Part shown: piece after piece, positions 6,176-32,011 of the stretch
How the letters are laid out: each line of letters starts with the position of its first letter
Numbering within the stretch: the stretch's first letter is position 1
IMG/VR virus record: IMGVR_UViG_3300036792_000179
Span: 1 to 56,663 of that record
From: a virus
DNA length: 56,663 nucleotides
Direction: 5' to 3' (one strand)
Position numbers and translations under genes: made by a program
Notes under the pieces: generated by a model
Told to the model about the DNA's origin: nothing
Seen by the model: the letters and a program-made list of their open reading frames with translations, nothing else
Database searches by the model: none

Positions 6176-6705
6176 GCCTCAATCCCCAAGCACGCCACGG
6201 AGCCGAGTCGCTGTCTCATCAGGCGAAGAAAGGGGTGCTCCCAGTTGAGCGCTCGGCGAAGCGCGAGAAGTCACCGTCTCGCCTTCGCCGAGCAACCGAG
6301 CTGAAGCGCGGCGCCGGGCCCAAACGGTCTGCGCTCAGGTCTCGGAGCAAATCGATCAGCCCGGCAACCGCCGAGCAGAAAGCGAAGGTCGACGGCCGCG
6401 CCTGCATCGCAGCAGACCTTGGCCCGTGCCTGGGCGACGTCGATCCCGCCCATTTGATTGACCGTTCCCTGGCCCCGTCGATGGGTGATGACGTACGAGC
6501 AGTCGTGCCCCTCTGCCGCCGCCACCACAACGAGTACGACGAACACAAGCTCGACCTGTCGACAGTGCTCGAGCCTCGGTTGCGCGAAGAGGCCGCGTGG
6601 GCTGTTGAAGCGCTCGGTCTCTTCGGCGCCCTTCGGCGCATCACCGGCAAGCACTGGCAGCCCGTTGGCGCTGACCTCCCTCAACCACAAGGAGACCCGT
6701 CGTGA
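6172..6705 (+). CDS. HNH/NinG-like recombination endonuclease (putative)
   Basis: 177 residues. A basic, serine-rich N-terminus leads to a zinc-HNH-like core: two cysteines (RACIA...GPCLG), DPAHLIDRS, and [18 protein letters not shown]. The pattern resembles the DUF968/NinG group of phage nucleases that act on recombination intermediates. ATGA overlap with the preceding gene supports a recombination role. The first histidine is displaced relative to classical HNH, so activity is unproven. Confidence 0.65.
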
Positions 6706-7448
6706 TCCAGATCAAGCGTTGGACGGATGGAAAAGTGTTGTACACGGCCGAGGGCGCAGCCGATGTAAAGGCGGCCCTCGAAGAGGCAGTGAAGGCGAAA
6801 GCCGACCTGCGCTACGCCGACCTGGGCTACGCCGACCTGCGCTACGCCGACCTGCGCTACGCCGACCTGCGCTACGCCGACCTGCGCTACGCCGACCTGC
6901 GCTACGCCGACCTGCGCTACGCCGACCTGCGCTACGCCGACCTGCGCTACGCCGACCTGCGCTCCGCCGACCTGCGCTACGCCAACCTGGGCTACGCCGA
7001 CCTGGGCTACGCCGACCTGCGCTCCGCCGACCTGCGCTCCGCCGACCTGCGCTACGCCGACCTGGACTACAGCCACCCACTTTGGGCCTTCTGGACGGAC
7101 TTCGTCGCAGTCCTCGACCGGGTACCAGCCGAGGCCGCCGGTCTGCGGGCGGCGATTGCAGAGGGCAACATAGACGGCTCCGTCTACGAGGGCGCGTGCG
7201 CGTGTCTCGTGGGCACGATCGCAAACGTTCGGCACGTCTCGTTCGACGAACTCGACATAGGCACTGACGCCTCGCGCCCGGCAGAGCAGTGGTTCATGCC
7301 GATTCGCAAAGGCGATGTTCCGATCGATGATCCAAAGCAGGCAAAGAGCGAGGGTGTCTTCCGAGCGAGCGTTGCGTTGCAGTGGCTCGACGAATGGGTT
7401 GAGCTGCGCAAGGGCGTTGCACAAGCGCTGGTGGCCGGGACGGCCTGA
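6702..7448 (+). CDS. Pentapeptide-repeat protein
   Basis: 248 residues. Residues 34-123 are 18 uninterrupted copies of a five-residue unit of the form A(D/N)L(R/G/D)(Y/S), which folds as a right-handed square beta-helix in known relatives. The C-terminal 120 residues are a separate domain ([33 protein letters not shown]) that I recognise from other actinophage pentapeptide proteins. In some families such helices mimic DNA and inhibit gyrase; here the role is not known. The GTG start overlaps the HNH gene. Confidence 0.9.
6801..7070. repeat. 18 tandem 15-bp repeats
   Basis: Eighteen head-to-tail copies of a 15-base unit (GCCGACCTGCGCTAC and single-base variants). Ten of the units encode ADLRY and are near-identical in DNA, so the array looks recently expanded and could change length by slippage without breaking the frame. 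Long open frames on the other five frames here are by-products of the repeat. Confidence 0.95.
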
Positions 7449-11096: not shown

Positions 11097-11470
11097 GCCA
11101 CATGATCTACCGCCCGGAGGTGATCGATCGCGCCAAGAAGCTCGCGGCGAGCGGATGGAATCCGTCGGAGATTCAGCGACTGCTCGAGCGGGAGCTCGGC
11201 GAGCGCCCAACCCGCGACACGATCAAGTGCTGGATAGATCCTGAGTTCGCCAAGCGCAGGTTCGCTCGCAAGGCTGCGTCGATGCGCCGGGCCTACCGCC
11301 CGCGTCCGCGACGGATTTCGCCAGATCTTCAGACCGAGCGCATGCTCGCACTGCGTGAGCGCGGGCTCAGCTTTGGCGCGATAGCGATCGTCAGCGAGGT
11401 GCTCTGGGACGCGCCGATTGCTGCTGAGCGGGTGCGCTATCGACTGCAGCGCCGGAAGGCGGCTGGGTGA
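11093..11470 (+). CDS. Helix-turn-helix DNA-binding protein (putative)
   Basis: 125 residues from GTG 11093 (ATG 11102 is an alternative). YRPEVIDRAKKLAASGWNPS followed by EIQRLLERELGERPTRDTIKCW resembles the resolvase/transposase-type helix-turn-helix, with a second HTH-like unit (LALRERGLSFGAIAIVSEVL) near the end. It precedes the integrase with a four-base overlap and may be a directionality or regulatory factor. Confidence 0.6.
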   Translation: MSHMIYRPEVIDRAKKLAASGWNPSEIQRLLERELGERPTRDTIKCWIDPEFAKRRFARKAASMRRAYRPRPRRISPDLQTERMLALRERGLSFGAIAIVSEVLWDAPIAAERVRYRLQRRKAAG

Positions 11471-12582
11471 TGACTGCCACCGCAACGCGGCCCCCTCGCC
11501 GTCGGACTGCCAGTCGCCTGCCGGCCTCTGCCCGCCCGGATGTTGGAGGATGGCAGTCGATGAAGTTCTCGCAGGCGATCGAGCTGTACGTCAAGGACAT
11601 GCGGCGCTACGGCCGGATCAACTCCGATCGCACGGAGGACAGCTATCGCCACCGGCTCTACAAGCACGGCGAGGACATCGGCAATCGTGACCCGCGAACG
11701 GTCGGTCGCAACGACATCAAGCGCACGCTCTCGCGCTGGGAGGCAGCCAACACTCAACGCAACGCCCACGCGATCCTGATCAGCTTCTACGACTGGTCGA
11801 TGGAGGAGGGCCTGCGAAAAGATAACCCGGCTCGGCAGGTGCGCAAGGCGAAGAAGCGCGAGACCTCGGTATACCGACTGACCAAGAGCGAGGTCGTTTC
11901 CCTGATCGACGCATGCCAAACCCAGCGCGAGCGGCGCGTGATCGTGCTCGGCGTCTGCGAGGGCGTGCGCAACCAAGAGATGCGTGGCCTTCGCGGCGAG
12001 CACTTCCAGCGACCTGGCTTCGTCTGGGTCAGTCCCGATATCGGGAAGGGCAAACGCGAACGCTGGCTCCCGGTCATTCCCGAGGCGCAGGAGGTTGTCG
12101 ATGAGATCTGCGCGGAGGTCGACCTCGACGACTTCATCTTGCCGGCACGGCGCCCGAGCAACCCGCCGTGGAATACGCGGTGGAAGGAGTACCCAGCCAA
12201 GCCCTCGAGCCCACAGTCGATCTGGCGACTCGTCGGCGATGTGGCTGCTCGGGCGGGCATCGCCGCGCACATCCACCCGCACCTTCTGCGCCATGCCTAC
12301 GGCGATCACGTCGCCAAGTACGCCGGTCTTCGTGCCGCCCAGGCACTCCTCGGCCACGCATCCGTCGACACCACAGCATCGACCTACGTCGACAAGCCGG
12401 GGCTCGACGAGCTCTCAGTCAGCGTCCACGGCTTCTCCTACCGTGGAGCTATGGACGGCTACCCCCGCGCAGAACACCCCGCAATCCCGCAATCCGACCC
12501 GACTGGACTCCAACCGGTGGATGCGTCCAAAGACGCTGTAGAGCCGAATCCAGACGGGAAGGTGGAGGGGGAGGGCAGCTAA
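11467..12582 (+). CDS. int: Tyrosine recombinase (phage integrase)
   Basis: 371 residues. A SAM-like N-terminal DNA-binding domain (about 25-120, SQAIELYVKDM) precedes the catalytic domain. Active-site residues can be placed: Arg168 (GVRNQEM), His272-x-x-Arg275 (HLLRHAYG), His297 (LLGHAS) and the nucleophile Tyr307 (STYV). This is full length for the family and shows the phage is temperate. About 50 residues beyond the active site form a disordered tail. The start at 11467 is followed by a second ATG at 11470. A tRNA gene lies 0.3 kb downstream on the other strand. Confidence 0.92.
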   Translation: MMTATATRPPRRRTASRLPASARPDVGGWQSMKFSQAIELYVKDMRRYGRINSDRTEDSYRHRLYKHGEDIGNRDPRTVGRNDIKRTLSRWEAANTQRNAHAILISFYDWSMEEGLRKDNPARQVRKAKKRETSVYRLTKSEVVSLIDACQTQRERRVIVLGVCEGVRNQEMRGLRGEHFQRPGFVWVSPDIGKGKRERWLPVIPEAQEVVDEICAEVDLDDFILPARRPSNPPWNTRWKEYPAKPSSPQSIWRLVGDVAARAGIAAHIHPHLLRHAYGDHVAKYAGLRAAQALLGHASVDTTASTYVDKPGLDELSVSVHGFSYRGAMDGYPRAEHPAIPQSDPTGLQPVDASKDAVEPNPDGKVEGEGS

Positions 12583-13017
12583 ATGCCCTACAAGGACCCC
12601 GCAAAGAAGCGCAAAGCGCAGCGTGAGTGGATCGCGCGCAGACGTGCCGAATGGCTTGAGGGTAAGTCCTGTGTGGACTGCGGCTCAACGGAGAACCTTG
12701 AGCTGGATCACGTCGACCCAGCCGAGAAGATCCACCACGCGATCTGGTCGTGGTCGAAGGTCCGGCGCGACGCTGAGATCGCCAAGTGCGTTCCTCGCTG
12801 CGCCGAGTGCCATCACGAGCGCCACGCGTCCGAACGTCGCAGCCACGGACATGGTGGCTACACGCGTGGCTGCCGCTGCGAGGTCTGCAAGGCGGCGAAG
12901 AGGCGAGGACGCGAATCGAACGCGCGTAAACGGCTTTGCAGGCCGCTGCCTAACCACTCGGCCACCTCGCCAGAGCAGGCATCCTACTCTCAGCTCGAAC
13001 TCGGCGAGGCCGCCTGA
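12583..13017 (+). CDS. HNH endonuclease with a second Cys-rich domain
   Basis: 144 residues. An HNH core (CVDCGS, LELDHVDP, CVPRCAECHHERH) is followed by GYTRGCRCEVCKAAKRR, a small motif often found in actinophage proteins. The last 35 residues are simply the opposite strand of tRNA-Cys, so the natural protein may once have ended earlier. It immediately follows the integrase. Confidence 0.75.
   Translation: MPYKDPAKKRKAQREWIARRRAEWLEGKSCVDCGSTENLELDHVDPAEKIHHAIWSWSKVRRDAEIAKCVPRCAECHHERHASERRSHGHGGYTRGCRCEVCKAAKRRGRESNARKRLCRPLPNHSATSPEQASYSQLELGEAA
12901..12971 (-). tRNA. tRNA-Cys (anticodon GCA), antisense to the HNH gene
   Basis: On the minus strand: acceptor GGCGAGG/CCTCGCC (perfect), D stem GCC/GGC, anticodon stem GCGGC/GCCGT around CTGCAAA, T stem GCGCG/CGCGT around TTCGATT. 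No CCA is encoded. A complete tRNA next to the integrase gene suggests it contains or abuts the phage attachment site, recreating the host tRNA on integration; it may also be expressed from the phage. Confidence 0.88.
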
Positions 13018-23667: not shown

Positions 23668-23962
23668 TTCCGACCGCGGCCCGGTCGCCGCGGCGGTTGC
23701 CAAGGATCTCGCCGAGATTCGCAAACACGACGCGGACCTAGCCGACGGCGCACTTGCCGCCTCTGCCCTCGCACTCGCTTGCGAGATCGACGGCAGCGAC
23801 AACTCCGCCACGTCCAAGAGCATGTGCGCCCGCGAGCTACGCGACACGATGGACCGTCTGTGGCAGTTGATGCCCGAGGAGGAGAATGCCGACGGCATCA
23901 ACGATCTCGAGAAGCAGCGAGAACGGAGACGAGCTAAGCGGGCAGCAGCAGCCTCGAGTTAG
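23654..23962 (+). CDS. terS: Terminase small subunit
   Basis: 102 residues from GTG 23654. RGPVAAAVAKDLAEI, ALAASALALACEID, SATSKSMCARELRDTMDRL and an acidic-then-basic tail match small terminase subunits of actinophages. It overlaps the preceding gene by 14 bases and TerL by 77. It recognises phage DNA for packaging. Confidence 0.8.
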   Translation: MAPRNSDRGPVAAAVAKDLAEIRKHDADLADGALAASALALACEIDGSDNSATSKSMCARELRDTMDRLWQLMPEEENADGINDLEKQRERRRAKRAAAASS

Positions 23963-25457
23963 CTGGGTTCCCCCATCTGTCGCCTCGACCGGCGAGGAAG
24001 CCATCGAGCTGGCCCGGATGACAGGCCTTGAACTCGACCCCTGGCAAGAGCTTGTTCTCGCCGGATCGCTTGGCGAAAAAGCGGACGGCAAATGGGCGGC
24101 ACGCGAGGTTGGCTGCGTAGTCCCGCGTCAGAATGGCAAGAACTCAATTCTTGAGGCCCGCGAGCTCGCAGGTCTGTTCCTCCTCGGTGAGCGGCTGATA
24201 ATCCACTCGGCCCACCAGTTCGATACCTCAGTCGAGCAGTTCCGCAGGCTGCTCTTCTTGGTCGAAGAGGACTCGCAGTTCAAGAAGCGCGTGGCGAAAA
24301 TCTCCCGAGCGCACGGCGCGGAGGGGATCACGCTCAAGAACGGCCAGCGGATCACCTTCCGCACCCGGACGCGTGGTGGTGGACGCGGATTCTCCTGCGA
24401 CTGCTTGGTGCTCGACGAGGCGATGATCCTGCCCGAGTCTGCGCACGGCGCTTTGATGCCGACGCTCTCCGCTCGGCCCAACCCGCAGATTTGGTACACG
24501 GGCTCAGCCGTCGACCAGGAGATCCACGAAGACGGCATCGTGTTTGCTCGTGTTCGTGAGCGCGGAACCGCAGGGAACGACCCCGGCTTGGCCTACTTCG
24601 AGTGGTCAGTCGAGGGCGATAGCCCCGAGGAAGTCGGCAAGGAACGTGCGACCGACCCAGAGGCGTGGGCTGAAGCGAACCCCGGCTTGGGCATTCGGAT
24701 CTCAGCCGAGCACGTCGCGCTCGAGCAACGCTCGATGGACCCACGCACCTTCGCCGTCGAGCGTCTTGGAGTCGGCGACTGGCCGCAGACCGATGGCTTC
24801 GCCAAGAAGAAGATCCACCCGGAGGCCTGGGCGGGACTGACCGACTCAGACTCACGTCCCAAAGACCCAGTCTGCTTCTGCCTGGATGTCTCGCCCGACA
24901 GGGCTTGGGCGAGCATCGGTGTCGCCGGCAGACGCTCGGATGGTCTGGCGCACCTGGAGACAATCGACCGTGGAAGCCTGCGTGGTACGGGCTGGGTCGT
25001 TGAGCGTTGCGTCGAGCTGACCAAAAAGCACCGCAACGTAGGACTGGCCCTCGCCGCGAACGGTCCTGTCGCCTCGCTGCTCCCTGATTTGCAGAAGGCC
25101 GGTCTGACGCTTCAGACCGAGCCCGGCCGAGGAACGATCATCCTCGTCAACTCAGCAGAGGAAGCTCAAGCCTGCGGAGGCCTCTACGACGCGGTCGATC
25201 AGTCACTGCTTAGGCACCTGGGCACACCAGACCTACAAGCTGCCATCGCCGGAGCGGTAGCAAGACCACTCGGCGACCGCTGGGCGTGGAACCGCAAGGA
25301 CTCAACGATCGACATCTCACCTTTGGTTGCGGTCACGCTGGCTTTGTGGGGACTTCAGACGTTCGCCAAGCCCGGCAAAGCACAGGTCGTAGACCTAAAC
25401 GAGTTGGTCAATGAAATGCGAGAGGACGGAGAGGATCTGTCTGATCCCTTCGCGTGA
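23886..25457 (+). CDS. terL: Terminase large subunit
   Basis: 523 residues. ATPase domain with a Walker A-like VVPRQNGKNS and Walker B LVLDEAM; GSAVDQ follows as motif III. The nuclease domain begins near LDVSPDRAWASIGV and ends with the expected acidic C-terminus. Length is normal. GGAGGAGA precedes ATG 23886. It powers DNA packaging and cuts concatemers. Confidence 0.93.
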   Translation: MPTASTISRSSENGDELSGQQQPRVSWVPPSVASTGEEAIELARMTGLELDPWQELVLAGSLGEKADGKWAAREVGCVVPRQNGKNSILEARELAGLFLLGERLIIHSAHQFDTSVEQFRRLLFLVEEDSQFKKRVAKISRAHGAEGITLKNGQRITFRTRTRGGGRGFSCDCLVLDEAMILPESAHGALMPTLSARPNPQIWYTGSAVDQEIHEDGIVFARVRERGTAGNDPGLAYFEWSVEGDSPEEVGKERATDPEAWAEANPGLGIRISAEHVALEQRSMDPRTFAVERLGVGDWPQTDGFAKKKIHPEAWAGLTDSDSRPKDPVCFCLDVSPDRAWASIGVAGRRSDGLAHLETIDRGSLRGTGWVVERCVELTKKHRNVGLALAANGPVASLLPDLQKAGLTLQTEPGRGTIILVNSAEEAQACGGLYDAVDQSLLRHLGTPDLQAAIAGAVARPLGDRWAWNRKDSTIDISPLVAVTLALWGLQTFAKPGKAQVVDLNELVNEMREDGEDLSDPFA

Positions 25458-26018: not shown

Positions 26019-27302
26019 ATGTCTTTGACGCGACGGGCGCTCGCAGGGCTTGAGAGCCGATCGGCCGGCGAATGGGGAAACTCCGTTCCGCCGACCAACG
26101 CGGAAGCTGGCGGCTTCGCTTCGGCTGCGGGTATCCCCGTCAGTCAGGAATCGGCGCTCCAGATTGCGGCGGTCTATGGTTGCGTCGGGCTGCTGTCGAG
26201 TTCGGTGGCCACACTGCCGTTGCGCTTGATGGACAACAAGGTCATCAAGAACGCGAACGAGCTGTCCGACTCACCGCTCATCACCGAACCGTACTCGGAG
26301 ATCAGCCTCCTCGATTGGGTGGTGCAGTTCGTCGCCTCACTTGCGTTGAGGGGCGAGTATTTCGGCCAGATCATCAGTCGCGACAAGAAGCTCTTTGCGA
26401 CGCAGATCAAGCCAATCCCCGCTGACAACGCCTCAGTCAGACGCACGACTGGCGGGACGCTCGAATACAAGTTCTTCAACAAGACGGTCCCGATCAAAGA
26501 TGTCTTCCACGTCAGGATGCTGTCCCTCCCGGGGATGCTCAGGGGAGTCAACCCGATCGAGTACCTGCGGCTCACGCTTGGACTCTCGCTAGCGCAAACC
26601 GGCTACGGCGCAAGCTACTTCCGTAACTCCGCCAACCCGCAAGGCGTCATCGAAGTTCCCGGCGAACTGGACCCCACCGAGGCCAAGAAGATGGCCCGCT
26701 CATGGTTGGCGGCTCATCAAGGAATCAACCAGGCCAACCTACCGGCGGTTCTGACCGACGGCTCCAAATTCAATCCCATCACGATCACGCCAGAGGACTC
26801 GCAGTTCCTTGAGAGCCGGGGCTTCTCGGCCGGTGAGATTAGCGGCATGATCTATCGCGTCCCGCCGCACATGATCGGGTTGGTTGACCGCTCAACGTCT
26901 TGGGGCACGGGCGTTGAGCAGCAGGAGATGGGTTACACCCGCAACACTTTGCAGGACTACATCGGTCGCTTGCAGTCATCGCTAACCGCGCTGCATCCTC
27001 CCGGGCAGTACGTGAACTTGGACCTCACCCAGCGGCTTCGTGGCGACACACTCCAGCGGGCCCAGGCTTCTTCGTTTGCCGTGCTTGGCGGGTTCTGGAC
27101 GCCGAATGAGGCACGTGCTCACTTCGACATGCCCTCGCGTCCCGACGGCGACGAACTCAACTCGCCGATCAATACCGAGCTACTGCGTGCCGCACTGGCG
27201 CAGGCCGAACAGCTCGAAAAGGAAGCCAAGCTGCCGGCCCAATCTCCCGCGTCGTCCAACGGCCAAGGCGACCCGGACCTCATCGCCGCACCTGCCCACT
27301 AA
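26019..27302 (+). CDS. HK97-type portal protein
   Basis: 427 residues, normal length. VYGCVGLLSSSVATLPLRL, LHGEYF-like ALRGEYFGQI, GVNPIEYLRLTLGLSL, GVIEVPGEL, and FSAGEISGMIYRVPPHMIGL (in parts) are typical of the HK97-like portal family. Forms the ring at the capsid vertex through which DNA passes. GGAGG precedes the ATG. Confidence 0.92.
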   Translation: MSLTRRALAGLESRSAGEWGNSVPPTNAEAGGFASAAGIPVSQESALQIAAVYGCVGLLSSSVATLPLRLMDNKVIKNANELSDSPLITEPYSEISLLDWVVQFVASLALRGEYFGQIISRDKKLFATQIKPIPADNASVRRTTGGTLEYKFFNKTVPIKDVFHVRMLSLPGMLRGVNPIEYLRLTLGLSLAQTGYGASYFRNSANPQGVIEVPGELDPTEAKKMARSWLAAHQGINQANLPAVLTDGSKFNPITITPEDSQFLESRGFSAGEISGMIYRVPPHMIGLVDRSTSWGTGVEQQEMGYTRNTLQDYIGRLQSSLTALHPPGQYVNLDLTQRLRGDTLQRAQASSFAVLGGFWTPNEARAHFDMPSRPDGDELNSPINTELLRAALAQAEQLEKEAKLPAQSPASSNGQGDPDLIAAPAH

Positions 27303-27314
27303 AGGAGGCAGCGT

Positions 27315-28619
27315 ATGCCCGCAGTTGACCAGATGGGGCGCGTGCCCAGCTCAGAGTGCTCGATCCGTAGAGAGATAGGAGAACTCGCTCGCGGGGACGG
27401 TAGCCATGACAAGGCCCGCAGGGATCTAATCGTCAGGGCCGTCGAGTCCAAACAGCCCGGCATGATTCCCGACAATTGGGCTCATGATGGCTCTCTGAGG
27501 GAGACGACGGGCGCCTGGTCGAGCGAGGAGGAACGCAGCACCTACAAAGACCTCCGCCAAGCGCTCGAATCGGCTATCAGCGACAAGCTCAACGACGGCG
27601 CCAGCGACGAGGACTACTGCTACGTCTGGGTCGCGGACTTCACCGATGAGTGGGTCGTCTACGAATACAAGGGCGACCTGTTTCAGTGCGACTACAGCGA
27701 AGCCGAGGACACGATCGTGCTCGCGGATCCGGTCAAAGTCCGCACTGTCACGAACTACGTCGAGACGAACGCTAAGAAGACGCGTACGGCAGCTTGGTCA
27801 GCGCGCGAAAGCCGGAAGGCCAAAGCGGAGCTGAGGGAGAAGACCTACGAGCGTCGCCATTGCACGCCGGGTCTTCAGGTGCGCGAAGCCCAGGACGGGA
27901 ACCTACTTGCGATCGGCTGTGCTAGCACGACCGAACACGCCTACGAGGTGTTGGACTGGAGTGAGACAATCGTGCGTGGGGCGTTCAAGCGCACCCTGGC
28001 GGCAAATCCCGACGTGGTCTATCTGGCGAACCACGAAGGCATGACGCTGGCCCGTACGACGACGGAAAGCCTCGACCTCGAAGAGGACATGCGCGGGCTC
28101 CAGTATCAGGCTCGCCTGCAATCACACGATCCCGACGTTCTGGCCCTTCGCCCCAAGCTCGAACGCGGCGACATGAACGAAAGCTCCTTCGCCTTCCGTG
28201 TGAATGAGCAGGAATGGGACGCCGACTACCGCAACCGCAGCATCCTCGAGGTCAACCTGCACAAGGGCGATGTCTCGGTAGTCAACTTCGGTGCAAACGA
28301 CACGACCTCAGCCGGGATGCGTGCCCTGCGAGGAGTCGGATTCGAGCACTTGTCCGGGGCGCTTCAGGAGCTTCGCGCGGGCAAAGCGCTTTCAGGCAGC
28401 AACGAACAGACGCTTGCCCGTGTGCTGGAGCTCGTCGCCGAAGCGGATGAATCGGTGGATGAGGCACAGCCACTTCTCGCACAGGTGCTCGGAGTCGCTA
28501 ATCCCGAGGATGAGGATGAGGACAGCACGCCCACCCGGAGCGCCGCAATGCTCACGGACGCAGCACTGGAACTGGACGCCGATGAACTGATGCTCGAACA
28601 GCTGCGCGGTGCACGATGA
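27315..28619 (+). CDS. Prohead maturation protease with extra N-terminal domain
   Basis: 434 residues, twice the usual size. The C-terminal part is an HK97-type (U35/S78-like) prohead protease: YLANHEGMTLARTT with the catalytic His, MNESSFAFRV with the Ser, and VNLHKGDVSVVNFGAN. The N-terminal 150 residues form a separate domain (DYCYVWVADFTDEWVVYEY, FQCDYSEAEDTIVLADPVKV) also seen beside proteases in other actinophages. The last 80 residues are acidic and may serve as scaffold. Confidence 0.85.
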   Translation: MPAVDQMGRVPSSECSIRREIGELARGDGSHDKARRDLIVRAVESKQPGMIPDNWAHDGSLRETTGAWSSEEERSTYKDLRQALESAISDKLNDGASDEDYCYVWVADFTDEWVVYEYKGDLFQCDYSEAEDTIVLADPVKVRTVTNYVETNAKKTRTAAWSARESRKAKAELREKTYERRHCTPGLQVREAQDGNLLAIGCASTTEHAYEVLDWSETIVRGAFKRTLAANPDVVYLANHEGMTLARTTTESLDLEEDMRGLQYQARLQSHDPDVLALRPKLERGDMNESSFAFRVNEQEWDADYRNRSILEVNLHKGDVSVVNFGANDTTSAGMRALRGVGFEHLSGALQELRAGKALSGSNEQTLARVLELVAEADESVDEAQPLLAQVLGVANPEDEDEDSTPTRSAAMLTDAALELDADELMLEQLRGAR

Positions 28620-29884
28620 CCCCGACCATCGAGGCGCGCATTGACGAGCAGATGCCGGAGCAGCGCATAGCAGCGCTTGAGACCGAGCTGCGAGAAGTCC
28701 GCACCGGCCGGGTAGAGATCGTCCGCGAGCCACTGGTCTACGAACGCCATGACGGTCACAAGCCAAAGGGGGAGCGCCACTCCTACTTCGCCGACCGTGC
28801 GATGGCCGAGATCAACGGTGACGAGCGTGCAATGCAAAGGCTCCAGCGCCACGCCGCGCAGATGGACGTGGAGCTACCGCGACTACAGCGCAAGCAGGCT
28901 CCGCCGGACGTTGAAATGCGTGTCAACCCTAACCGGGTCGATGGCCAGGGCGGTTATTTCGCACCGCCGCTGTGGGCAAACGAATACTTCGCCACCGCGC
29001 CGAGGCCCAAGCGCGTACTCGCGCACATGATCCCGAACTTCGATCTGCCGCCGGGGGTTGCCGAAGTCAAGCTCCCACGCATCATCTCGGGCAACCGGGC
29101 CGATGACAAAGTCGACGGCGTCCCGAACGCCGGCAAAGACTTCACGGATGGTGTCGTGGAAGCGCCCGCGATGACCGTCGCGGGACAGTCAGATGTCTCA
29201 CTCCAGGACCTGGAGCAGTCGCCACACTCGGCAGCCCTGGACTTCGTGCTCCTCAAGGATCTGTTGGAGTCCTACGACTTCCATGTCGAGGAAAACCTGT
29301 TCGTCGGAGAATCTGTCGGCAAACAGGAATTCGTCGGGATGCTCGACCTCTCGACAGGTGCTGGTGGTGTGAGCAAGGTCGAATACACCTCCGGCTCACC
29401 CACTGCTGTGGCGATGTACCTTGCGCTCGGCAAGGTCACCGCTCAACTCGGCGACGCCCGCAAAATCCAGCCGCAGGTCGTTCTCATGCGCACCGCCCGC
29501 TGGTCGTGGATCGGATCGGGTGAGGACAAAGAAGAACTGCCGCTGGCCGTGCCGGCGCACACTCCGCCCCCAGCAATCCCTTACCTCTTCGACGACAACG
29601 TGCCGACGCCGGTCTCGGCATACCTCGGCTGGCCGATCTACCTCTCGGACGCGATCCCGGCGAAACTCGGCGCTGGAGAAAACCAGGACGCGATCGTGGC
29701 TTGTCGGCCCTCGGACTCGATGTTGTTCGAGTCTCCGAAGCGCACGAGCGTCAAAAAGGAGGTGCTGAGTGGGACCCTCCAAGCGCGGATTGAGCTTCAC
29801 GCCTACGCGGCTGCTCTCTTTCGTTACCCGACGGGGATAGCGACGCTGACCGGCACCGGCCTGATCGTCCAGGAAGGCTATTAG
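28616..29884 (+). CDS. HK97-fold major capsid protein, copy 1
   Basis: 422 residues, ATGA overlap with the protease. A helical delta/scaffold region (1-105) ends before RVNPNRVDGQGGYFAPPLW, the usual maturation boundary; the core continues with VKLPRI, AGQSDVSLQDLEQSP, and the C-terminal LSGTLQARIELHAYAAALFR. It is clearly paralogous to the gene at 30311, sharing these motifs in order. Either copy, or both, may form the shell. Confidence 0.88.
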   Translation: MTPTIEARIDEQMPEQRIAALETELREVRTGRVEIVREPLVYERHDGHKPKGERHSYFADRAMAEINGDERAMQRLQRHAAQMDVELPRLQRKQAPPDVEMRVNPNRVDGQGGYFAPPLWANEYFATAPRPKRVLAHMIPNFDLPPGVAEVKLPRIISGNRADDKVDGVPNAGKDFTDGVVEAPAMTVAGQSDVSLQDLEQSPHSAALDFVLLKDLLESYDFHVEENLFVGESVGKQEFVGMLDLSTGAGGVSKVEYTSGSPTAVAMYLALGKVTAQLGDARKIQPQVVLMRTARWSWIGSGEDKEELPLAVPAHTPPPAIPYLFDDNVPTPVSAYLGWPIYLSDAIPAKLGAGENQDAIVACRPSDSMLFESPKRTSVKKEVLSGTLQARIELHAYAAALFRYPTGIATLTGTGLIVQEGY

Positions 29885-29886
29885 CG

Positions 29887-30183
29887 ATGGCTGATTCCTC
29901 AAACCGCACCGACGACCAGGCCACGAGCAGCCCCGGCGGAGTCGAAGTCAACAAAGCGAGCATCGAAGTCCTGCCCGATAACCCGGAACGGCTCGGCTCC
30001 TACTGGAGCACTTCTTCGACAGCGACCTTCTCACTCGGACTTGGCGAGGCTGCGGTCGTAGGGCAGGGCATAGTCGTCAGTGCGACGTGTCCATGGAACG
30101 GCCTTATCGGCACGGTCGTCTGGAGCGGTTCGGTGTTCGCAATCGCCTCGGAAAAAGCCGAGCTTGCAGTCGTAGAGCTTTAG
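29887..30183 (+). CDS. Small beta-rich virion protein (putative)
   Basis: 98 residues between the two capsid genes. A disordered N-terminus (SSNRTDDQATSSPGG) leads to beta strands (ATFSLGLGEAAVVGQGIVVS). Suggests a capsid decoration protein, from position only. Confidence 0.55.
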   Translation: MADSSNRTDDQATSSPGGVEVNKASIEVLPDNPERLGSYWSTSSTATFSLGLGEAAVVGQGIVVSATCPWNGLIGTVVWSGSVFAIASEKAELAVVEL

Positions 30184-30194
30184 CGCAGCACCCC

Positions 30195-30272
30195 ACGTTG
30201 GACCCCGTCCTTAGACGTTGGACCCCCTCCTGAACGGAGCGGGCACCGCCTCTCTGTGGCCGGGCACCGCCT
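30195..30272. promoter_or_regulatory. Two pairs of direct repeats between the capsid genes
   Basis: ACGTTGGACCCC occurs at 30195-30206 and 30215-30226 (20-bp period), and CGGGCACCGCCT at 30240-30251 and 30261-30272 (21-bp period). The 127-base gap holds no gene. Two-turn spacing suggests protein binding, or the repeats may be scars of the capsid duplication. No promoter boxes are clear. Confidence 0.5.
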
Positions 30273-30310
30273 GGAGCAATCAGTAACCCACTCCCTAAAA
30301 GGAGGCTCCC

Positions 30311-32011
30311 ATGGCGGAGACCGCAACCATAGAGACTGAGACGGAGGAGCGCTCGATCCTTGAGCAGCTTCAGGAGCGGCGCTCGACGCTGCTCAAAGAG
30401 ATGGCGGATGCCATCGAGGCACGCAAGAAGGAGCGCTCGGAGTTCGAGGGTCGCGCCGCTGAGGCGATCACCGACGAGGACCGCTCCAGTTACGAGACCG
30501 CTGGTGCCGCATACGTAGCGCAGCGCGACCAGCGCAAGGCGGAGATCGCCGAGCTCGATCAGCGCATCGACGAGGAGGAGTTGCTGGAACGTCGCAAAAA
30601 CGACGCCCAGAAGGCCTCCATCGCCGATGTGCGCGTTGAAATCACCCACGAGGAGAAAACCTACGAGCGCGGCAACGGCCGCTCCTACTACCGCGACATG
30701 GCGGTCACGCATCTCCCCGGTGCTCGGGCGGAGCTGGGTGGCGAATCTGAGGCGCTTGAGCGTCTACAGAAACACGCGGCGGAGGTTCGTGTTGAGCTGC
30801 CGAAGATCGAGCAGCGCTACGAAGAGCGTCACGCGATGGGGGAGGTGGACCGGGCCGAGCGCTCGATTCGTCGCGAGCTATCGGGGCCACTCGGCATCCA
30901 CGCGCGAGGCATCGAAGGAAACCCCTTCACCTCCTCGCCGGTTGAAAAACGAGTCAACCCCAACCGCCTCGACGGTCAGGGTGGGTTCTTCGTTCCGCCG
31001 CTGTGGCTGCCCGAGTTCATCAAGGCCCTTCGCGCGGGTCGTCCGACGGCAGACCTCTGCCGCCAGATGCCGCTTCCGCAGGGCACGGACTCGATCAACA
31101 TGCCGAAGATCAAGACGCCGACGGAAGTCGCGGCACAGACGGCGGACTCTGCACCAGTTGCCGAACGAGACTGGACGGACGAAGCGGTCACCTCGAACGT
31201 CAAGACGCTGGCAGGCCAGTCCGACGTCGCGATTCAGCTCTTGGAGCAGTCGCCATACCACCTCGACGAGGTCATCACCGAAGACCTGATCGCTGACCTG
31301 AACCGCAAGGTCGACCGGGAAGTGATCGCGGCCCCGGGGACGAACACGGCAGCGCTGAATGCCGGCCTGATCCAGGGCCTCTATCCGGCCAAAAACTGGA
31401 ACGCCAACACGGTGAACTGGGAAGAAGCGGCTCCGGACGCCAAGGCGTTCAACATGGCGATGGGCGCGGGAATCGCCCAGATCGCCGCGTCGCGTTTCAG
31501 CGTGCAGAACGTGCACGTCGTCACGCACCCACGTCGCTGGTACTGGATGTCCACACAGTTGGATGGCCTGGAAGGCAAGGCTGGACGTCCGATCGTCAAC
31601 GCCGAGGGCTTCGGTCCGTTCAACCTCTCGGCTCTGGTCGATGGCGGGGAAGAGCCCGCCGAGGGTCTTGTCGGGCAGCTACCTTATGGCCCGCACGGCG
31701 TCTACGTGGATGCGAACATCCCGACGAAAGACACAGCCGGCGTTCCCGGTGCAGGCACGGCGGATGTTGCGATCATCGGCAAGTTCGACGACGCATGGCT
31801 GTTCGAGGGCGCGCTGAGGACTCGGGCGCTCTCGGAGGTGCTTTCGGGAACCCTGGAGATTCGCTTCCAGGCCTTCGAGTACTACGCCTTCCTGGTCCGC
31901 TACGGGCAGTCGCTGGCGATCGTCTCGGGCACGGGCTTCGCGCCCCCGGTCGGTACGGGCATCGGCACGTCGATCAAATACACCTCCTCGGTGTACGCGC
32001 CGGAAGTCTAA
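30311..32011 (+). CDS. HK97-fold major capsid protein, copy 2
   Basis: 566 residues; AAAAGGAGG eight bases before the ATG. A long charged coiled-coil region (1-210, e.g. ERRSTLLKEMADAIEARKKE) serves as scaffold; the shell domain starts at RVNPNRLDGQGGFFVPPLW and runs through NMPKIKTPTEVAAQT, AGQSDVAIQLLEQSP and LSGTLEIRFQAFEYYAFLVR. It aligns by motif with copy 1 along its length but has a longer N-terminus. A strong hairpin follows its stop, as is common after abundantly expressed capsid genes. Confidence 0.9.
   Translation: MAETATIETETEERSILEQLQERRSTLLKEMADAIEARKKERSEFEGRAAEAITDEDRSSYETAGAAYVAQRDQRKAEIAELDQRIDEEELLERRKNDAQKASIADVRVEITHEEKTYERGNGRSYYRDMAVTHLPGARAELGGESEALERLQKHAAEVRVELPKIEQRYEERHAMGEVDRAERSIRRELSGPLGIHARGIEGNPFTSSPVEKRVNPNRLDGQGGFFVPPLWLPEFIKALRAGRPTADLCRQMPLPQGTDSINMPKIKTPTEVAAQTADSAPVAERDWTDEAVTSNVKTLAGQSDVAIQLLEQSPYHLDEVITEDLIADLNRKVDREVIAAPGTNTAALNAGLIQGLYPAKNWNANTVNWEEAAPDAKAFNMAMGAGIAQIAASRFSVQNVHVVTHPRRWYWMSTQLDGLEGKAGRPIVNAEGFGPFNLSALVDGGEEPAEGLVGQLPYGPHGVYVDANIPTKDTAGVPGAGTADVAIIGKFDDAWLFEGALRTRALSEVLSGTLEIRFQAFEYYAFLVRYGQSLAIVSGTGFAPPVGTGIGTSIKYTSSVYAPEV

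Follow-up and report, generated by a model that had tools for sequence, protein, structure and literature searches.

Most HK97-fold viruses place one protein at both the five-fold and the six-fold positions of the shell, and a splitting of this job between two proteins is known in few cases. What, then, do two full-length capsid genes do side by side in one head module? We address this question for a 56,663-base IMG/VR virus record (IMGVR_UViG_3300036792_000179), hereafter the window. The window encodes a contractile-tail structural module (tail sheath match to PHROG 23, E = 4.6e-24), and its head genes, all on the + strand, follow the standard order with a second capsid gene added: terminase large subunit (23886..25457; PHROG 9, E = 1e-79), portal protein (26019..27302; Pfam PF04860, E = 1.9e-64), S78 prohead protease (27315..28619; Pfam PF04586, E = 1.6e-21, residues 199-334), the short-pro-domain capsid protein MCP-A (28616..29884, 422 aa) and the long-pro-domain major capsid protein MCP-B (30311..32011, 566 aa). 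The ATG of MCP-A overlaps the stop codon of the protease (ATGA), and MCP-B has its own leader and an AGGAGG ribosome-binding site (30300..30305, + strand).

Several neighbouring features were observed. The protease carries a long extra N-terminal domain of the WVxDF type (residues about 75-172), and a domain of this type is fused in frame ahead of MCP-A in five relatives (L092, L102, L136, L146, L165). Between MCP-A and MCP-B lies a 98-aa ORF (29887..30183, + strand) with no PHROG or Pfam match, whose homologues follow A in six loci (L088, L156, L157, L158, L159, L163; phmmer E = 8e-14 to 6e-9) and which is possibly a head accessory protein. Two relatives have a tRNA gene between the capsid genes (L156, 7792-7863; L154, 7786-7856). 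Elsewhere in the window we noted by eye an ORF (6702-7448) containing an extended array of ADLRY-like pentapeptide repeats and an integrase-like ORF (11467-12582); the latter, near an opposite-strand tRNA-Cys gene (12900-12971), suggests a temperate phage. A host search started from the Acidimicrobiia MAG behind one relative (L190) and covered 396 genomes of its phylum and 395 of its class; the matches were weak and at outgroup level only.

An earlier note on this DNA had read 28616-32011 as two paralogous, full-length HK97-fold capsid genes that share three motifs in the same order and differ in scaffold length (about 105 against 210 residues). Both ORFs are intact, and their products are 30% identical by BLASTP (141/475, 168 bits, E = 5e-51), with RVNPNR.DGQGG.F.PPLW, AGQSDV...LEQSP and LSGTL all present in identical order. 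Both proteins hit PHROG 2263 ('major head protein'), A at 5.8e-20 and B at 1.1e-37. B also matches Pfam Phage_capsid (E = 3.1e-11); the Pfam search with A gave no match, and a PDB sequence search with A and B found no relative. AlphaFold2 models (mean pLDDT 81.4 for A, 73.6 for B) have the HK97 fold in the mature domain of both proteins (best Foldseek E = 5.7e-13 and 7.8e-14; VIA Z = 21.5 and 19.4, for A and B respectively), and hhalign aligns their two profiles along the mature length (E = 1.3e-84). T4 gp24 is absent among the 50 structure matches listed for A, which has no bearing either way. Helices precede the mature domain in both models, downstream of an adjoining prohead protease gene. 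The predicted pro-domain of A (delta, 28616..28921, + strand, placed from the alignment and from residues 99-115 being modelled with low AF2 confidence) ends near residue 102 and that of B (30311..30952, + strand, from the AF2 model, helices 16-46, 55-105 and 145-191) near residue 214, close to the scaffold lengths given before.

Relatives were collected by three profile scans of viral contigs and then scored with A- and B-specific profiles, redundant loci being dropped by eye; the profile scans succeeded where peptide scans with the single A or B protein found nothing. Counts from these scans are among the matches listed (the best 80 in two scans) and are not frequencies. The short-then-long A/B tandem occurs in at least 44 distinct viral contigs, window included, in the order protease-A-B wherever the contig retains its upstream end. 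In a 120-row tree, 44/44 A sequences fall in one clade (50 rows, SH-aLRT 100) and 44/44 B sequences in another (45 rows, SH-aLRT 100), so that two homologous shell proteins are kept together in one lineage. A accompanies 44 of the 45 rows of the B clade, and the remaining row (L162) is cut by the contig start. The A and B distance matrices correlate (r = 0.79; 0/2000 label permutations as high), with the nearest partner identical in the two trees for just 18/44. A evolves faster: its path is the longer one in 98% of the phage pairs compared, and in 20/22 disjoint pairs. A further scan recovered deeper pairs in other arrangements, A-protease-B in L253, L257 and L258 and B before A in L256 and L259.

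The earlier note had proposed substitution rates as a check on whether both genes are under selection. Estimates rest on a single close pair (L048-L111), the only one in which NG86 and YN00 both returned values for A as well as B, since synonymous sites are saturated in most other pairs; here NG86 gives a dN/dS of 0.122 for A and 0.156 for B, and YN00 0.048 for A and 0.034 for B, which shows purifying selection on both genes in this pair. Because the pairs are deep, conserved and co-diversifying, include other gene orders and show purifying selection, the A/B pair is old and maintained. These results confirm a real, conserved system that is neither a recent duplicate nor decaying. The decay of one copy, which the note had envisaged, is contradicted by the joint retention and co-diversification of both genes in 44 contigs and by dN/dS.

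The word 'paralogous' survives in part. A tree of 52 rows recovers A as one clade and B as another (bootstrap 100 for each) and places the single-MCP phages, both mycobacteriophages and contigs, with B. An origin of A by duplication of B within the lineage was rejected: a clade of A plus B is disfavoured by a log-likelihood difference of 50 (p-AU 0.0026), a result to be read with caution in view of the long stem of A. Judged from these trees, A is not the nearest relative of B, long-branch effects being possible. Rejection of the A+B clade implies either that the duplication is older than the single-MCP phages, which would then have lost A, or that A was acquired from an unsampled line. The two genes are thus a homologous pair whose split predates the lineage or whose A member was transferred in. 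Duplicate capsid genes are uncommon, as had been remarked, among isolates, the mycobacteriophage relatives Bipper, Courthouse and prophiGD43A-5 having one MCP each, but within the metagenomic lineage carriage of both is the norm.

The two proteins differ most plainly at their N termini. In 44/44 A the match to the B profile begins at position 76 or higher; in 44/44 B and 36/44 single MCPs it begins at 40 or lower. The N-terminal coiled-coil part of the B pro-domain is thus missing in A, and the long helices 16-46 and 55-105 of the B model are without a counterpart there. Both starts could be assigned in 31 pairs and the motif measured in 29; the pro-region is shorter in A, the putative vertex protein, in all 29 (median 103 for A, 217 for B).

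Highly expressed mycobacteriophage genes are described as preferring C-ending codons (PMC2817497), and we used the C-ending fraction of two-fold codons as a proxy for expression and copy number. B has a median of 0.923 and A one of 0.831, B being higher in 35/44 (Wilcoxon p = 1.7e-6, contigs not being phylogenetically independent). A lies at the level of the portal (0.825) and protease (0.817), and B exceeds the portal in 35/38. In the window alone the two fractions are close (A, 0.831; B, 0.876). As a control, single MCPs exceed the portal in 35/38 and the protease in just 25/41. The proxy fails for Bipper, one of three cultured single-MCP phages (MCP 0.921, portal 0.935), and gives like values for the two capsid proteins that are annotated as hexamer (0.927) and pentamer (0.933) subunits in mycobacteriophage PRodriguez. 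Shine-Dalgarno strength is alike overall for A and B (B stronger in 23/42, p = 0.63, start choice being biased); the duplex energy in the window is -10.9 for B and -5.3 for A.

With an ancient split, a given A need not resemble the B of its own phage above any other B. Identity between A and B is nevertheless higher within phages (0.339) than between phages (0.325; 43 pairs, 0/1000 permutations). The strongest within-phage co-variation among 68 alignment windows is in the maturation-site/N-arm region (z = 7.96, 0/1000 permutations), and the peak coincides with a motif flagged by the earlier note. This region still ranks first when the set is reduced to 26, 13 or 10 distant phages (z = 6.3, 5.1 and 4.5, respectively; 0/2000 permutations each). 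A common protease and a common shell would be the simplest reasons for such co-variation. Cleavage of MCP-A is expected near VEMR-VNPNR. Proteolytic removal of the pro-domain from both A and B is putative, the shared E-x-R site motif and its co-variation being what was observed.

We also observed group I intron-like sequence interrupting MCP-B in four relatives (L165, 8639-8867; L088, 10787-11021; L156; L168). The insertion site is common to all four, at the GG before YFVPP, just past the predicted maturation site; matches to RF00028 have E = 1.1e-9 and 1.5e-10, both under the gathering score. In L242, MCP-B is in three pieces.

At least five further contigs or elements carry A without B or a portal gene (L108, L211, L246, L105/L106, L099), and their A sequences nest at several points within the phage A clade. 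L108, a whole 17,991-base contig that was scanned as L234, encodes leftward an integrase (Phage_integrase, E = 6.3e-23) and then an ORF at the regulator position (1149-1793) with no family match, and rightward an AAA ATPase (AAA_25, E = 3.5e-15), TerS (Terminase_4, E = 2e-11), a charged coil-like ORF and MCP-A; profiles found no terL, portal, protease or B in it. This is the gene order described for PICIs in PMC6092414, with integrase and regulator leftward and a replication gene and terS rightward; PICI-like induction by a phage and packaging in helper particles are putative for this element. In L211, terS and A are accompanied by a coil-like ORF and an S78 protease, and the 8 kb beyond contain no B. 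L105 and L106 encode terL and A, without a portal between them, together with a coil-like ORF and a protease; L106 also has a D5-type primase and no B in the 860 bases beyond. L099 has no B within 850 bases past its protease, and L246 has A and a protease followed by a tape-measure-like ORF (by eye). Coil character was judged by eye throughout. We left out of this count contigs that end within or just after the protease, where B may lie beyond (L097, L213/L214), and contigs that end soon after A (L087, L104). If A is a vertex protein, as proposed below, the A-only elements would be satellites, each furnishing a vertex subunit of its own for the shell of a helper.

The earlier note had offered a mixed shell, a special vertex or different head sizes. 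The evidence favours the second, and the other two are less probable. We propose, with a probability of about 0.6, that B is the major hexamer shell protein and A a low-copy HK97-fold subunit dedicated to the pentamers (vertices), the pentamer placement being inferred. A and B would co-assemble into one procapsid, with most of the scaffold supplied by the long coiled-coil pro-domain of B. The single S78 protease would then cleave A and B at one kind of site, an E-x-R close to VNPNR, and release the pro-domains, and satellites with A alone would provide their own vertex protein for the shell of a helper. A role of A in pentamers and of B in hexamers agrees with the shorter pro-domain of A, its lower expression signal, the shared maturation site and the occurrence of A alone in satellite-like elements. 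The same placement is favoured by the conserved short-then-long tandem right after the protease, with each gene in one clade and correlated distances, by co-variation that is strongest around the maturation site, by the asymmetry in which A occurs without B and B not without A, and by the faster evolution of A. Against it stand the Shine-Dalgarno strengths, the codon controls in PRodriguez and Bipper, the 25/41 of single MCPs above protease, the small codon difference in the window itself and the 18/44 nearest-partner agreement; the A-only elements, moreover, could mean that A alone builds a complete (small) shell.

Sharing of hexamers and/or pentamers by A and B, as in two-component family 2B encapsulins, would tune stability or surface. 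In its favour, both proteins are full-length and HK97-fold, their common maturation-site motif co-varies, and the PDB structure matches include the two-component encapsulin shells 9bje and 9bix. We consider this unlikely, as the weaker codon bias of A, the loss of pro-segment in A only and the A-only elements point to distinct roles and not to interchangeable subunits. Somewhat more doubtful is the formation of separate shells of different size or shape, such as a small A head. It would account for the elements in which A occurs without B, mostly beside a protease and a separate coil-like ORF; in such satellites A might assemble alone. In the phages, however, the two genes are kept as a pair and their products co-vary at the maturation site, and one portal and one protease serve both proteins, while the A-only elements have no portal gene in the available sequence and so are not apparently self-sufficient for heads. 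The portal-like codon bias of A and the overlap of its start codon with the protease stop would also suit a minor or non-shell head component that retains the HK97 fold, such as a portal-vertex adaptor or core protein; the conserved HK97 core of A and its profile alignment with B over the mature length make this improbable. That A is a relic being lost is scarcely credible, its faster evolution notwithstanding, given reading frames that are open in the pairs examined, dN/dS of at most 0.12 in L048-L111 and the persistence of A across deep divergence.

The large and diverse set of A/B pairs, the homologous single-MCP relatives and the A-only elements would form a comparative data set on the residues that make a capsid protein choose pentamers, which would also address whether satellites take vertex proteins to control head size. 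In the literature searched we found no description of this two-capsid lineage. Among its closest comparators are the single-MCP actinophages (Bippervirus, Omegavirus, prophiGD43A-5), which share with the window a homologous MCP and the terminase-portal-protease-MCP order and differ from it in having one MCP and no A-type copy. Tandem capsid genes are also present in the cluster B mycobacteriophage PRodriguez, where genes 13-14 are annotated 'major capsid hexamer / pentamer protein', but there the order is long-then-short and the pentamer protein has only 268 aa. Comparison of the cluster B pair with A and B by hhalign, from single sequences only, gave no sign of similarity (probabilities 0.2 and 1.3), so A and B look like a further, separate case. 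A hexamer/pentamer capsid pair is also named for Gordonia cluster DR in PMC9413003.

The T4 pair offers a described parallel for the division of labour proposed here. The vertex protein gp24 is given in PMC9958956 as a homologue of the hexamer protein gp23 that has a shorter propeptide (10 residues lost, against 65 in gp23) and is cut by the same protease. Like A and B, these are two HK97-fold shell proteins in one virus, the shorter propeptide belonging to the vertex protein and one prohead protease cutting both (PMC9958956, PMC5694885), a cleavage that is inferred for A and B. The T4 proteins, likened here by description, are about 20% identical, against 30% for A and B, and B differs in its fused, long scaffold-like pro-domain.

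On the satellite side, which is the newest and least proven part of the case, the parallel is SaPIbov5. According to PMC8569155, the satellite-encoded Ccm fills the pentamers and the CP of the helper phi12 fills the hexamers, with pro-domains of residues 1-87 and 1-128, respectively. Ccm resembles A as a satellite-carried capsid-protein homologue with a shorter pro-domain; a pentamer placement of A is putative. The two systems differ in that helper-type phages here carry both genes and the A-only elements sit inside the phage A clade. It is possible, and we put it forward tentatively, that an unnamed, actinophage-like soil virus lineage has an independent hexamer/pentamer system from which integrating satellites have repeatedly captured only MCP-A, with or without a coil-like protein and their own protease, redirecting helper shells; this would be the SaPIbov5/Ccm strategy in a second, unrelated setting.
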